From the NCBI RefSeq assembly GCF_009602465.1, contig NZ_WBKP01000040.1, positions 1-35,876 of the forward strand: DNA of 35,876 nt. The letters run 5' to 3'. This DNA is from Cumulibacter manganitolerans (GTDB lineage Bacteria; Actinomycetota; Actinomycetes; Mycobacteriales; Antricoccaceae). Position numbers and translations under genes: made by a program. This document shows positions 4,136 to 17,237 of this stretch, one piece after another. Under the pieces are notes generated by a model that saw only the letters and a program-made list of their open reading frames with translations, did no database searches and was not told where the DNA came from. Within the stretch, counting starts at the first letter, position 1. Each line of letters starts with the position of its first letter.

Positions 4136-4825
4136 TCAGCCCCGCGGCGCGGCCGCGTCGGCGATCAGCCGGGCCAGATCCTGCGGCCGGGTCACCATGG
4201 GCCAGTGGCCCGAGTCGGTGTCGACGTACTCGACGTCCGCGGCCCGCGCGAGCTCCGGCAGCTCGCCGGCGCGCACCCAGGCGCGCGCCTCGTCGGGGGA
4301 GAACTCCGGGCAGACCATGGTGATCGGGACGGCGTACCGCCGCTCGTCGGCCAGCCGCACGATGCCCTGCGAGACCGCCTGCGGGACGGGGATCGCGCCG
4401 CCTTCGAGCGCCGCCCGCCGGTCGTCGTCGAGGTCGGCGGAGTCGGCGCCGGCGAACGGCTCCCACCCCGGGAACGGCATCACGCCGTCGACCGGAGGGA
4501 AGAAGTCGGCGTACGTCGAGCCGTCCATGCCGGGGAAGCCGCCGACGAGCACGACGCGCGCCACCCGCTCGGGCCGGGCGTCCGCCGCGACCCAGGCGAG
4601 CGTGGCGGCGGCCGAGTGACCGACGACGACGCAGCCCGGCTTGGCGGAGTCCACCGCGGCGACGACGGCGGCGACCTGGTCCGCGAGGGTCGCAGTGCTG
4701 CTGCCGTCGCCCTGGCCTGGCAACCGTACGGGTACCGGCCGGACGCCGAGACGGGCGAGCTCGTCCGCGGTCGTGCTCCAGACCGACGCGTCGAGCCACA
4801 GGCCGGCGATGAGCAGAACGTCCAC
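4136..4825 (-). CDS. Alpha/beta-fold hydrolase
   Basis: A 229-residue protein of the alpha/beta hydrolase superfamily. It opens with the first strand VDVLLIAGLWLDASVW and has an oxyanion region after GLWLDASVW. The nucleophile elbow is VVVGHSAAATLAW (GHSAA, serine nucleophile), and a late DSGHWPM segment supplies the catalytic His. The acid is probably in the ITMVCPEFSPDEAR region. The GTG at 4825 is chosen because AGGAGG lies six bases upstream; an open frame continues upstream only through the repeat region. This size and motif set fit esterase/lipase-like or EstA-type hydrolases; the substrate is not predictable. The gene lies downstream of sepH on the same strand but is separated from it by about 780 bases of repeats, so co-transcription is doubtful. 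Confidence 0.85.
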   Translation of the reverse strand: MDVLLIAGLWLDASVWSTTADELARLGVRPVPVRLPGQGDGSSTATLADQVAAVVAAVDSAKPGCVVVGHSAAATLAWVAADARPERVARVVLVGGFPGMDGSTYADFFPPVDGVMPFPGWEPFAGADSADLDDDRRAALEGGAIPVPQAVSQGIVRLADERRYAVPITMVCPEFSPDEARAWVRAGELPELARAADVEYVDTDSGHWPMVTRPQDLARLIADAAAPRG

Positions 4826-4913
4826 GACGCACCTCCTGCGCGGGTATCTCGTCAGCCTAGCCGTCGTACGCCGCGGGGCAGGCGACGGAGGATCGGTCGG
4901 GGGCCTCACGCAT

Positions 4914-5101
4914 GGTCGTCGAGCGAGCGAGCCCCTTGGGGCGAGCGACGTCGAGACGTCGCGGGTCGCTGGTTCGGGTGCGCCGAGCGTTGGGTGCGCG
5001 TTCCCGCGGGAACGTCGTCGGTCGCTGCGGTGGTCGCGGGCGTTGTCGGCTTCCGGCGTCTCGGCGTCGCTTCGCCTATCGGCTCCGCTCGCTCGACGAC
5101 C
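4914..5101. repeat. Palindromic repeat unit, copy 1 (188 bp, 16-bp terminal inverted repeats)
   Basis: The unit begins with GGTCGTCGAGCGAGCG (4914-4929) and ends with its exact reverse complement (5086-5101). Inward of these ends the two arms stay similar with small gaps for about 45-50 bases (GAGCC, GGCGA, GCGACG, CGAGACG on both arms). A second perfect palindrome, GTTCCCGCGGGAAC, sits in the middle at 5000-5013. The structure resembles a small non-autonomous palindromic element or a REP/ERIC-like chromosomal repeat. Confidence 0.85.
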
Positions 5102-5207
5102 AGCAGGAGCGGCGACCGTGGGGTGCGACGTCCGCGGGAAGTGACGCGGGGCAGGATCCACGCCGCGGGGCAGGGCGGCGGAGGATCGGTCGGGGCGGCT
5201 CGCGCAT

Positions 5208-5395
5208 GGTCGTCGAGCGAGCGAGCCCCTTGGGGCGAGCGACGTCGAGACGTGGCGGGTCGCTGGTTCGGGTGTGCCGAGCGTTGGGTGCGCGTTCCCG
5301 CGGGAACGTCGTCGGTCGCTGCGGTGGTCGCGGGCGTTGTCGGCTTCCGGCGTCTCGGCGTCGCTTCGCCTATCGGCTCCGCTCGCTCGACGACC
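5208..5395. repeat. Palindromic repeat unit, copy 2 (188 bp)
   Basis: Same length and same 16-bp ends as copy 1, with only a few substitutions. The central palindrome is at 5294-5307. The start-to-start distance from copy 1 is 294 bp, so it is a direct tandem copy that also includes part of the flanks. Confidence 0.85.
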
Positions 5396-5460
5396 AGCAG
5401 CAGCGACAACCGTGGGTCGCGACGTCCGTGGGGGCGCGACAACCGTGGGGCGTTCACCAT

Positions 5461-5601
5461 GGTCGTCGAGCGAGCGAGCCCCTTGGGGCGAGCGACGTCG
5501 AGACGTGGCGGGTCGCTGGTTCGGGTGCGCCGAGCATTGCGTGCGCGTTCCCGCGCGAACGTCGTCGGCCGCTGCGGTGGTCGCCGGCTTGTCGGCTTCC
5601 G
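5461..5601. repeat. Palindromic repeat unit, copy 3, truncated
   Basis: This copy begins with the same 16-bp end and follows copies 1 and 2 to about 5601, where identity stops six bases before the sepH stop codon. The right inverted end is therefore missing. The central palindrome is altered by one base (GTTCCCGCGCGAAC, 5547-5560). Confidence 0.8.
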
Positions 5602-5607
5602 AAGGGG

Positions 5608-6687
5608 CTACTTGCGCTTCTTCACGCCGAAGACGATGTCGTCCCAGCTCGGGATGCGCGGCTTCTTGTCCTTGGCGGCCGTCTCGCCGTCGTCCTGCGC
5701 CGGGCCCTCGTCGGCCTCGCGGCGGGGCCGCGGTCGCTCGTCGGGGTCGACGTCGTCGGCCTGCGGCTGGGAACGCTCGTCGCGGTCCTCGGCGGGCTGC
5801 GGACGGGGCCGCTGGCGGCGCTGCTCGAACGCGGCCGGCTCGTCGAGGTCGTCGTCGCGCAGCTCGGGCCGGCGGCCCGCGTTGCCGAGGTGGCCGGGGT
5901 CGACGGCGTCCTCGAGCTCGTCGGGCAGGAACAGCTGCTCGAGATCGACCTCGCGCCCCACCGGTCGCTTGCGGGGGCGCCGACGCGGCTCCTCGTCGCG
6001 GTCACGCCCGCGCTGCAGCGGGATGGGTGCCTCCGCGGGCTCGTCGGCGTCGCCGGCGGACGGGTCGTCGACCGGTACCGGCACGGCCGAGAGCCGCGGC
6101 TTCGGCTCGACCATCGCGATGGTGTCCTTCGTGCCCGGGTAGGCGATGCCGTTCTGCATGTCGTAGCGCCAGTGCGCGGTGACCGTGCGGTCGTCGGCCT
6201 GCCAGGTCGAGGACACCTCCCACTGCCCGTTCTCGAGGCGGCGGGCGTCCCAGTCGACCGGGTTCTCGTCGATGCCGCGCACGAGCAGCCGGTTCTCGAT
6301 CAGCTCGCGCAGCGTCGGCGGATGCGCGCCGGAGTCCTCGATCTTGACCTTCGCGGACTGGGCCCGCTGCGCGACCTGGGCGCGTTCCTGCAGCACCGGG
6401 TAGGCGTAGGTCATGACCCGCTCGATGCGGATGCCCGCGGCCGCGGCCACCGCGTCCGGGGTCTCACCGGCGCGGATCCGCGCCTGGATCTCGCGCGGCC
6501 GCAGCTGCGACTCGATCTCGAGCTCGATCTGCCCGAGGCGGCTGATGTCGCCGCGGGAGGCGGCGCGCAGGCGGTCGTCAAGAGCCAGCAGGAAGCGCTC
6601 GCCGTTGTCGATCGCTTCCGGTACGTCAGGGGCGAGCACGAAGTGCTTGCCGTCCTCCGACAGTGCGACGAAGCGAAGTGGGCGCAT
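5608..6687 (-). CDS. sepH: Septation protein SepH (DUF3071), FtsZ-interacting division regulator
   Basis: A 359-residue protein with the actinobacterial SepH architecture. The N-terminal DUF3071 domain starts MRPLRFVALSEDGKHFVLA and carries a helix-turn-helix-like stretch at about residues 62-104 (LRPREIQARIRAGETPDAVA). A long disordered, acidic/arginine-rich linker follows at about 200-335, and then a conserved basic tail, KPRIPSWDDIVFGVKKRK. In Streptomyces and Mycobacterium SepH binds FtsZ and promotes Z-ring assembly during septation. The ATG at 6687 is chosen because family members start at MRPLRF and a GGAGGAGG site lies upstream; an ATG 48 bases further up would place that site inside the gene. 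Divergent from the E1 gene at 6846. The repeat block begins six bases after its stop. Confidence 0.93.
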   Translation of the reverse strand: MRPLRFVALSEDGKHFVLAPDVPEAIDNGERFLLALDDRLRAASRGDISRLGQIELEIESQLRPREIQARIRAGETPDAVAAAAGIRIERVMTYAYPVLQERAQVAQRAQSAKVKIEDSGAHPPTLRELIENRLLVRGIDENPVDWDARRLENGQWEVSSTWQADDRTVTAHWRYDMQNGIAYPGTKDTIAMVEPKPRLSAVPVPVDDPSAGDADEPAEAPIPLQRGRDRDEEPRRRPRKRPVGREVDLEQLFLPDELEDAVDPGHLGNAGRRPELRDDDLDEPAAFEQRRQRPRPQPAEDRDERSQPQADDVDPDERPRPRREADEGPAQDDGETAAKDKKPRIPSWDDIVFGVKKRK

Positions 6688-15405: not shown

Positions 15406-17169
15406 TCAGTAGCCGGCGTACTCGTTGGTGATCGGGCTCGTCGCGGCGGGCTCGAGGAGCTCGGCCATGTCGGTACGGCCGACGCGTGCGCCGGCCCAGC
15501 GCGGGTAGGGGTGCTCGTCGGTGTCGAACACGCTGGTGTACCGACGTACGGACTCCATCGCCGCCGGCAGGTCCCAGTGCGGCTGGATGCTGCTGACGGA
15601 GTGCCAGGCCTCGTCCTGGTTCGGGACGACCACCGACGGCGCTGCCTGCAGCCGCAGCGCGTCGCCGGTGAGCTCGGCGAGCAGCTCGCGCTCGTCGGGA
15701 TGGCGCAGATTCGGGTCGGCGAGCCCGGCGCGGGAGTACTGCGAGGGATGCTGCGCCGTGATCAGCTGGCCGCCAGCCCGCCGGAAGTCGTATCCGCGTC
15801 GGGACGGGCGCTTCGTGATCGTGATGCCGGCGGCGTGCACGACGACGTGGTGGTGCTGGCACAGCAGCAGCATGTTGCACACGTCCGTCGGGCCGCCCAG
15901 GCTCCACCGCACGATGTGATGCGCGTGCAGGCGGGTCGCTCGGGTGCAGCCGGGGAATCGGCAATGCCGGTCGCGCGCCTTCAGAGCCCGTTTCTGGGCC
16001 TTGGTCGCGAGGCGACGCTCGCGGCCGAGGACCAGCACCTCGCCGTCGGCGCCGGTGACTACCGGCTGCACGACACCGGTGCACGCGATCCGCGCCGCGG
16101 TGGTCGCCGCCAGCCGGCCGACCGGCTCCGCCCACGTCGAACCGCCGAATCGATCGGCGTCCGCCGCAGCAACGGCGTCGGTCGCATCGGCGTCGCGCGT
16201 TCCCGCGGGAACGTCGTCGTCCGGCGCGGCAGCGTCGCGGAGGTCACGCTCGTCGATGTGGACGACGACCACATCGCGGTCCTCGCCGGACACGTCGGCC
16301 GGGCCGGAGTCGATGAATCCGCGGGCCACGTCCACCAGGGCGTCGGCCAGCGTGAAGGCCGGCACGGGCGCCTCCGCATCGGGCGTTCCCGCGGGAACGT
16401 CCTCCTCGAGAACCGACTGCTCCTCACCGGCCTGGCGCGCCGCCGCCGACCGGTATCGCACGGTGGCGATCTCGAGGGCGTTCAGCACGATGGCGGCCTC
16501 TTCCGGCGGCAACCAGGCGCTGATCTGGATGGTCCCGTCGGGTAGCTCGCGATGCGTGACCCGACGCGCCTCCTCGGCGACCAGCCGCTGGCTGCGCCCG
16601 GCGCGGAACCCACGCACCGCCCGTTCCAGCTGTGCCGCGGTCATGTTCCGGGCGACCTCCACGAGCGTCGCCTCGTCGATCAGACCGGCGAGCCGGGTGC
16701 ACTCGCGCGCCTTGCTGAACGACAGCAGGCCGCGCCCGAACGCCTCGGCAACCAGCGGCATCACTCGCAGCGCGCGGGCGATCCGCACGTGCTCGCGCGC
16801 GGCGCCGGGGCTCATCGAGCACGAGAACGCGAGCCACTTGGACGTCGACTCGATGTTGTAGTGGTCGGCGCCGCGACGGGCGTCGAACACGCCGACCATC
16901 TCGATCCAGGCGGCCGTCGTGACCGCGACCTTCGCCGCGCCGGTGATGATCCGCGCGGCCAGCACCTCCGCCTCGTGCTCGGCAAGATGGTTCGTCATGA
17001 CCCCGGCCGCCTCGGCGCGGGCCGCGAACGCCGCCGTCTCCGCCTCGGTCGGTACCTCCTGGCCGAGCTCGTTGATGTTGATCCCCACGACAACCGCCCC
17101 CGGTTCCCAGATCGACTGCTCCCCACCGACGCTACGCACGGCCACCGACAGAATCCTTGCGGCGTTCAT
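15406..17169 (-). CDS. DUF222 and HNH endonuclease-domain protein (13E12 repeat family)
   Basis: A protein of about 587 residues. A helical DUF222 domain lies in the N-terminal half (HYNIESTSKWLAFSCSMSPGAAREHVRIA region). An acidic linker contains two near-identical DVPAGT motifs. The HNH domain is CRFPGCTRATRLHAHHIVRWSLGG...LLCQHHHVVVH, with its Cys pairs and HH. Proteins of this family are multi-copy in actinobacteria, and in M. tuberculosis their genes (REP13E12) serve as prophage integration sites; nuclease activity is inferred from the HNH motif. The start is uncertain: ATG 17169 is used, ATG 17220 would leave only 17 bases to the divergent gene, and GTG 17088 has the best Shine-Dalgarno. 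The DVPAGT codons coincide with the palindrome of the 4.9-5.6 kb repeats. Confidence 0.85.
   Translation of the reverse strand: MNAARILSVAVRSVGGEQSIWEPGAVVVGININELGQEVPTEAETAAFAARAEAAGVMTNHLAEHEAEVLAARIITGAAKVAVTTAAWIEMVGVFDARRGADHYNIESTSKWLAFSCSMSPGAAREHVRIARALRVMPLVAEAFGRGLLSFSKARECTRLAGLIDEATLVEVARNMTAAQLERAVRGFRAGRSQRLVAEEARRVTHRELPDGTIQISAWLPPEEAAIVLNALEIATVRYRSAAARQAGEEQSVLEEDVPAGTPDAEAPVPAFTLADALVDVARGFIDSGPADVSGEDRDVVVVHIDERDLRDAAAPDDDVPAGTRDADATDAVAAADADRFGGSTWAEPVGRLAATTAARIACTGVVQPVVTGADGEVLVLGRERRLATKAQKRALKARDRHCRFPGCTRATRLHAHHIVRWSLGGPTDVCNMLLLCQHHHVVVHAAGITITKRPSRRGYDFRRAGGQLITAQHPSQYSRAGLADPNLRHPDERELLAELTGDALRLQAAPSVVVPNQDEAWHSVSSIQPHWDLPAAMESVRRYTSVFDTDEHPYPRWAGARVGRTDMAELLEPAATSPITNEYAGY
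16199..16212. repeat. Palindrome GTTCCCGCGGGAAC inside the HNH gene, site 1
   Basis: A perfect 14-bp palindrome that with flanks shares 25 identical bases with the centre of repeat copies 1 and 2. In the HNH frame it encodes part of DVPAGT. Confidence 0.7.
16385..16398. repeat. Palindrome GTTCCCGCGGGAAC inside the HNH gene, site 2
   Basis: A second perfect copy, 186 bp (62 codons) from site 1 and in the same reading frame, again encoding DVPAGT. Confidence 0.7.
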
Positions 17170-17237
17170 GCCCTGGTGCAGGCCCGATTCCGGTGCGACA
17201 CTGACCGCACGGAGATCCATGCGGGAAGGCGGCCGTC

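Follow-up and report, generated by a model that had tools for sequence, protein, structure and literature searches.

We have found that the repeat array lying behind a DUF3071 (SepH-type) gene of Cumulibacter manganitolerans belongs to a family of REP-like hairpin repeats with about 185 copies in this genome, and that related REPs lie upstream, in the same orientation, of many multi-copy DUF222-HNH genes in several actinobacteria. Each full unit of the array consists of two inverted ~45-nt repeats, of core types A and B, placed tail to tail, an arrangement similar to that of BIMEs and REPINs. No match to the Y1/RAYT transposase, the usual mobiliser of REPs, was found in any of 18 repeat-bearing genomes, and we read the array as non-autonomous derivatives of DUF222-HNH elements. 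The REP nature of the array is well supported, while the role of the DUF222-HNH element, its most likely driver, is a strong association with an inferred mechanism, in which we have only moderate confidence.

Results

Structure of the array

The DNA analysed, called here the window, is a stretch of 35,876 nucleotides (assembly GCF_009602465.1, contig NZ_WBKP01000040.1, positions 1 to 35,876). The original prediction described a tandem array of a 188-bp element with 16-bp perfect inverted ends and a central palindrome, present in two full copies and a truncated one, and this was confirmed, with start-to-start spacings of 294 and 253. The inverted ends are 17 bp perfect by direct reading, and arms of 49 nt are 78% complementary. 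However, the element is not one simple unit with terminal inverted repeats but two REPs of different core type facing each other. The features are as follows:

4136..4825 (-): gene downstream of the array, alpha/beta hydrolase (Pfam was run on the longer ORF 4136-5161)
4913..5102 (+): unit 1, tail-to-tail REP dimer (A..B), 190 bp
4914..4958 (+): REP copy, core type A
4999..5014 (no strand): spacer palindrome CGTTCCCGCGGGAACG
5057..5101 (-): REP copy, core type B
5207..5396 (+): unit 2, tail-to-tail REP dimer (A..B), 99% identical to unit 1
5208..5252 (+): REP copy, core type A
5293..5308 (no strand): spacer palindrome CGTTCCCGCGGGAACG
5351..5395 (-): REP copy, core type B
5460..5601 (+): unit 3, truncated, with A and most of the spacer kept and B lost, ending 6 bp from the sepH stop codon
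5461..5505 (+): REP copy, core type A
5608..6687 (-): gene upstream of the array, DUF3071 (SepH-type; the name SepH is taken from the original prediction)

Folded as single-stranded DNA, positions 4911-5104 score z = -7.0, with 0 of 200 shuffles as stable. An Rfam scan of 4500-6000 gave a single match, below its gathering score and outside the array, and no terminator-like site is present in the array. Orthologues of sepH were found in four relatives, but no orthologous site for the array was found, and the hydrolase has only distant matches in two of them.

A genome-wide family of hairpin repeats

The pattern GGTCGTCGAGCGN{8,32}GTCGAGACG hits 91 times forward and 94 times reverse in this genome, with 0 in the control, and full-length relatives of the units with 90-92% identity are present on contigs C32 and C36 (C numbers denote contigs of the assembly). 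A local duplication, which the 99% identity of units 1 and 2 could have suggested, is therefore refuted as the only explanation. In the same genus, genome G002 has 10 copies and genome G001 has 0, and the two other genomes of the family have 0. Of 397 genomes of the order, 16 have a hit, but the 14 besides the C. manganitolerans genome and G002 have one each, with cores that look unlike the repeat. A count of 14-mers in 400 kb each of G001 and G002 revealed no comparable repeat.

In the window and 54 further stretches of the genome we found 168 fuzzy matches, of which 161 were classified; the 7 unclassified ones, 3 of which look like type A, were dropped from the pair counts, and type B in these counts includes some E2-like cores. 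Each repeat has a near-constant head (consensus CACGGTCGTCGAGCGAG) and tail (CGACGTCGAGACG) that can pair around a variable hairpin core, and conservation ends about three bases before the head. By reading the cores, most types fit the order GTC, GA bulge, stem P2, GA/GA loop, stem P1 and loop, with P2 as GC/GC, GCC/GGC, GG/CC or AC/GT, whereas types C and D have P2 (GGGC/GCCC, GGC/GCC or GC/GC) and the loop GAGGAACGA in place of P1. The outer helix, formed by head and tail, covaries across genera, as 113 and 114 of 118 distinct repeats pair at its two variable positions against shuffled maxima of 76 and 89. Against within-genome shuffles the second position exceeds all 2000 (maximum 112), but the first, at head base 4, does not (maximum 115). 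The RNA z-scores of five repeats of this genome are modest (+0.3 to -1.8), compared with -2.2 in G004 and -6.1 in G597 (two other actinobacterial genomes), so that the structure rests on covariation and on reading the cores and not on energy. At several loci (L numbers denote extracted loci; e.g., L032 3709 and L031 3569) head fragments (ACGGTCGTCGAG) repeat alone at about 20-26 bp spacing just outside full copies.

Of 100 neighbouring pairs less than 400 bp apart, 44 are tail to tail and 36 head to head, with unlike core types in 80 of 80, and 20 are direct, with the same type in 20 of 20, although tandem duplication of one dimer produces part of this rule. The tail-to-tail units are discrete, since E1/D dimers (11 copies) are 0.92 identical inside and 0.32 in the far flanks, and A/B dimers (6 copies at three loci, window included) are 0.93 identical inside. 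Taking E1/D, A/B, B/D and A/C dimers together, identity is 0.91-0.95 inside and 0.26-0.38 in the far flanks, except for 0.59 on the right of A/B, where tandem copies of one locus count together. No target-site duplications were seen, the mean best direct repeat of 44 dimers being 0.34 against 0.33 in shuffled sequences.

Position relative to genes

Of 64 sampled clusters, 56 lie between gene calls, 4 overlap one and 4 are at contig edges. Among the 56, 34 are between convergent, 19 between tandem and 3 between divergent genes (p 1.2e-7), although the gene caller is our own and unvalidated, and two of the 64 clusters are made of unclassified matches only. In one case two type-I repeats lie in frame inside the C-terminal end of an ABC permease gene and add repeated residues (L044 9057-9198, C29). 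Among 10 of the proteins encoded between nearby clusters we found one IS481-type transposase, whose gene lies 56 bp from a REP copy (L040 4376-5251, C53), and two DUF222 genes.

This placement, together with hairpin cores that show paired changes, could indicate that the repeats are kept as bidirectional 3'-end RNA or DNA elements (mRNA stabiliser, terminator or nucleoid site) whose spread is secondary or old. However, three gene pairs that hold REP clusters here are 55, 91 and 99 bp apart in G002, and none of the ten G002 copies lies in those stretches, while G001 has 0 copies. Furthermore, no run of four T was found within 20 nt after the tail in 161 of 161 copies, and the placement bias also follows from selection against insertions elsewhere. 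We therefore consider this explanation unlikely; a transcription or nucleoid role, which the original prediction had also proposed, is compatible with the 3'-end placement but is not shown.

Search for a RAYT transposase

The architecture, unlike partners, copy number and 3'-end placement match those of REPs as described in PMC3733652, so that an ordinary RAYT-driven REP/REPIN system had to be considered. However, PF01797 has no match in this genome, rated 100% complete, nor in any of the 18 REP-bearing genomes, while the control finds the family in 5 of 14 known genomes. This explanation is thus very unlikely.

REPs upstream of DUF222-HNH genes

In the C. manganitolerans genome we found ten DUF222 genes (11 rows, that of C11 being below the cut-off), two of which have the upstream side cut by a contig end (C4:129717 and C66). 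Of the other eight, five (C10, C4:38832, C8, C25 and C11) have a REP upstream in the same orientation, and C12, C28 and C40 do not, although these figures lack a control count of upstream REPs for this genome. The five are not independent, as they represent three families: X (C25, C11), Y (C4:38832, C8) and C10. Contig ends C3, C43 and C47 hold further copies of X, 84-95% identical in DNA, and because several contigs end inside X copies the true number of copies may be higher than counted. In X the REP, of type A as in the window, lies inside the shared block with shared sequence on both sides (five copies). In Y a 1.88-kb block, 93.6% identical, holds a type E1 REP and ends at the gene's C-terminus, and the C10 gene has a type B REP, so the core types next to DUF222 genes include both types of the window unit. 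The window holds its own DUF222-HNH gene at 15406-17220 (-), without a REP upstream, which contains the core of the spacer palindrome twice (at 16200 and 16386), once with a 25-nt exact match to the spacer.

In the wider class, the pattern GGTSGTYGAGN{14,40}TCGARACNNC hits 150 of 394 genomes, most of them only once or twice, and high counts with control 0 occur mainly in one family (genomes G725 with 216, G597 with 130, G514 with 102, G541 with 101 and G456 with 91), in G561 (22) and in the C. manganitolerans genome (136). Among 40 DUF222 loci chosen from REP-rich genomes, 20 have a same-orientation REP upstream and 20 do not: G597 9 of 10, G456 4 of 6, G532 0 of 8, G514 1 of 6, G725 2 of 3, G470 1 of 3, G629 2 of 3 and G561 1 of 1, with opposite orientation adding cases in G456 and G514. 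In control stretches, placed by hand at roughly even steps off the DUF222 loci, a same-orientation REP within 500 bp upstream was found in 2 of 367 genes of G597 and 4 of 369 of G456. As one of the four G456 REPs lies over 500 bp away, the fair figures for DUF222 genes are 9 of 10 and 3 of 6 (p 1.4e-15 and 7.8e-5, paralogues being treated as independent). In G004 six of six loci show head or tail motifs upstream (4 of 6 by a stricter pattern), one with about eight tandem copies. G532 carries a divergent form, seen in the six genes aligned, and three of four aligned G643/G698 loci carry a minimal form.

Many DUF222 genes lack REPs. Among the 30 top-scoring DUF222 loci only 3 have a REP upstream, with two more on the 3' side, and DUF222 paralogue groups in G001, G002, G003 and G712 show no REP by the patterns used. 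By reading, three DUF222 genes of G002 (L151, L161, L171) carry a stretch like the type-D core inside their 5' coding region, and L151 also has a REP-like hairpin downstream. DUF222 gene number is no higher in REP-rich genomes. A scan for the helix without the head sequence gives 22 of 93 upstream, 3 in the gene body and 4 downstream, while an exact-stem scan upstream of 13 DUF222 loci, which misses the bulged helices, gave two unrelated hits.

DUF222-HNH units look mobile

In G597 (9 copies aligned), G004 (6), G532 (6) and G725 (3), similarity stops at or within about ten bases of the stop codon and the flanks are unrelated; a sharp 3' end is also seen in family Y, and in family X the match between C3 and C4 ends at the stop codon. 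Of 100 DUF222 loci, 93 entered a protein tree, seven being left out because contig ends cut them. In this tree the REP label, which for G532 and G643 relies on patterns written after their forms had been seen, is clustered (18 changes, shuffled mean 30.9). Rows with a close paralogue in the same genome carry REPs in 40 of 68 cases and singletons in 2 of 25 (p 1.1e-5 uncorrected), but the support is weak when corrected for the tree (the same way in 5.2 and the other way in 0.1 of 11 pairs, median p 0.0625). Pfam HNH was matched in 6 of 10 proteins, above cut-off in 2, and an HNH motif was found in 61 of 93 proteins and in 34 of 42 REP-labelled ones. A PDB search with one DUF222 protein gave only a chance-level match, and NCBIfam only weak hits (IscB, a restriction enzyme) far below cut-off.

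Discussion

Both suggestions of the original prediction, a non-autonomous mobile element or a REP-like repeat, hold together, as the array belongs to a REP family arranged in BIME/REPIN-like units that disperse as units with unrelated flanks. We propose that the HNH protein recognises and cuts the REP hairpin, probably single-stranded, and spreads both its own unit and, in trans, REP dimers such as those of the window, that local arrays then grow by tandem duplication, and that copies are tolerated at gene 3' ends, where they may also act on transcripts. All of this is inferred, without experiment, and the absence of target-site duplications and the presence of REPs at one side only of the DUF222 units, while REP dimers have two inverted ends, speak against it.

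The main alternative is that REPs are landing sites, next to which DUF222-HNH elements insert, and that they are spread by something else. In G597 two different REP core types lie next to members of one DUF222 family, and the distance from the nearest REP to the first in-frame start codon is 302-304 bp in 7 of 9, as site-specific insertion would give. In addition, where this genome has a REP array on C36 (L032 3665-4722), relative G001 carries a DUF222 gene between the same two neighbours (L152), which fits either view. However, in families X and Y the REP lies inside the duplicated block with shared sequence on both sides, no REP was found on the 3' side of the 10 G597 loci, and the six REP matches in 400 kb sampled from G597 have other 3' flanks than the DUF222-linked ones. 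We therefore regard this alternative as unlikely, although it is the strongest of those considered.

Like the REP/BIME repeats with GTAG heads and RAYTs of enterobacteria, pseudomonads and others (PMC3733652), the repeats described here are short hairpins of high copy number, with alternating orientation, unlike partners in dimers and an intergenic 3'-end bias, but they have no GTAG head (the head is GGTCGTCGAG) and no RAYT/Y1 match in any of 18 genomes, their paired outer helix covaries between genera, and they are linked to DUF222-HNH genes instead. The CGTC REPs (PMC3733652) are also a family without a dedicated transposase and mostly inverted dimers, and a CGTC lies in the head here. However, they have an unpaired CGTC end and stems of 8-9 bp starting with AT pairs, with loops mostly of 4-5, whereas here CGTC can pair in the outer helix, the head and predicted folds differ, and dimers are tail to tail more often than head to head; four actinobacterial search words do not occur in that paper. 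REPINs (PMC3116915) would be two inverted REPs that move as one unit, and the dimers here are dispersed as units with a conserved spacer, but the dependence on a RAYT that REPINs appear to have is not fulfilled. Compared with MITEs, the units have terminal inverted repeats but no target-site duplication was seen. Finally, the REP13E12/DUF222-HNH repeat of Mycobacterium tuberculosis, named as a repetitive element in PMC10589994, shares the multi-copy DUF222-HNH genes, with no hairpin-repeat link mentioned in that passage. Judging from titles and the beginnings of abstracts, literature searches listed no paper linking REPs with DUF222 or HNH genes (papers consulted also include PMC12306157, PMC6006769 and PMC5526307).

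It is possible, although this remains tentative, that DUF222-HNH genes are autonomous mobile elements of a so far unrecognised kind in actinobacteria, in which an HNH nuclease, and not an HUH or DDE transposase, recognises a GA/GA-interrupted hairpin (as single-stranded DNA or as a transcript) at the 5' side of its own unit, the same activity seeding hundreds of non-autonomous hairpin dimers across the genome. REP repeats are usually tied to RAYT transposases, and how families without one spread is left open in PMC3733652. Here a large actinobacterial REP class without a detectable RAYT is linked to a concrete and testable candidate, the DUF222-HNH protein, whose main domain is still a domain of unknown function in Pfam. 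If right, this would also explain why actinobacteria carry so many DUF222 genes.
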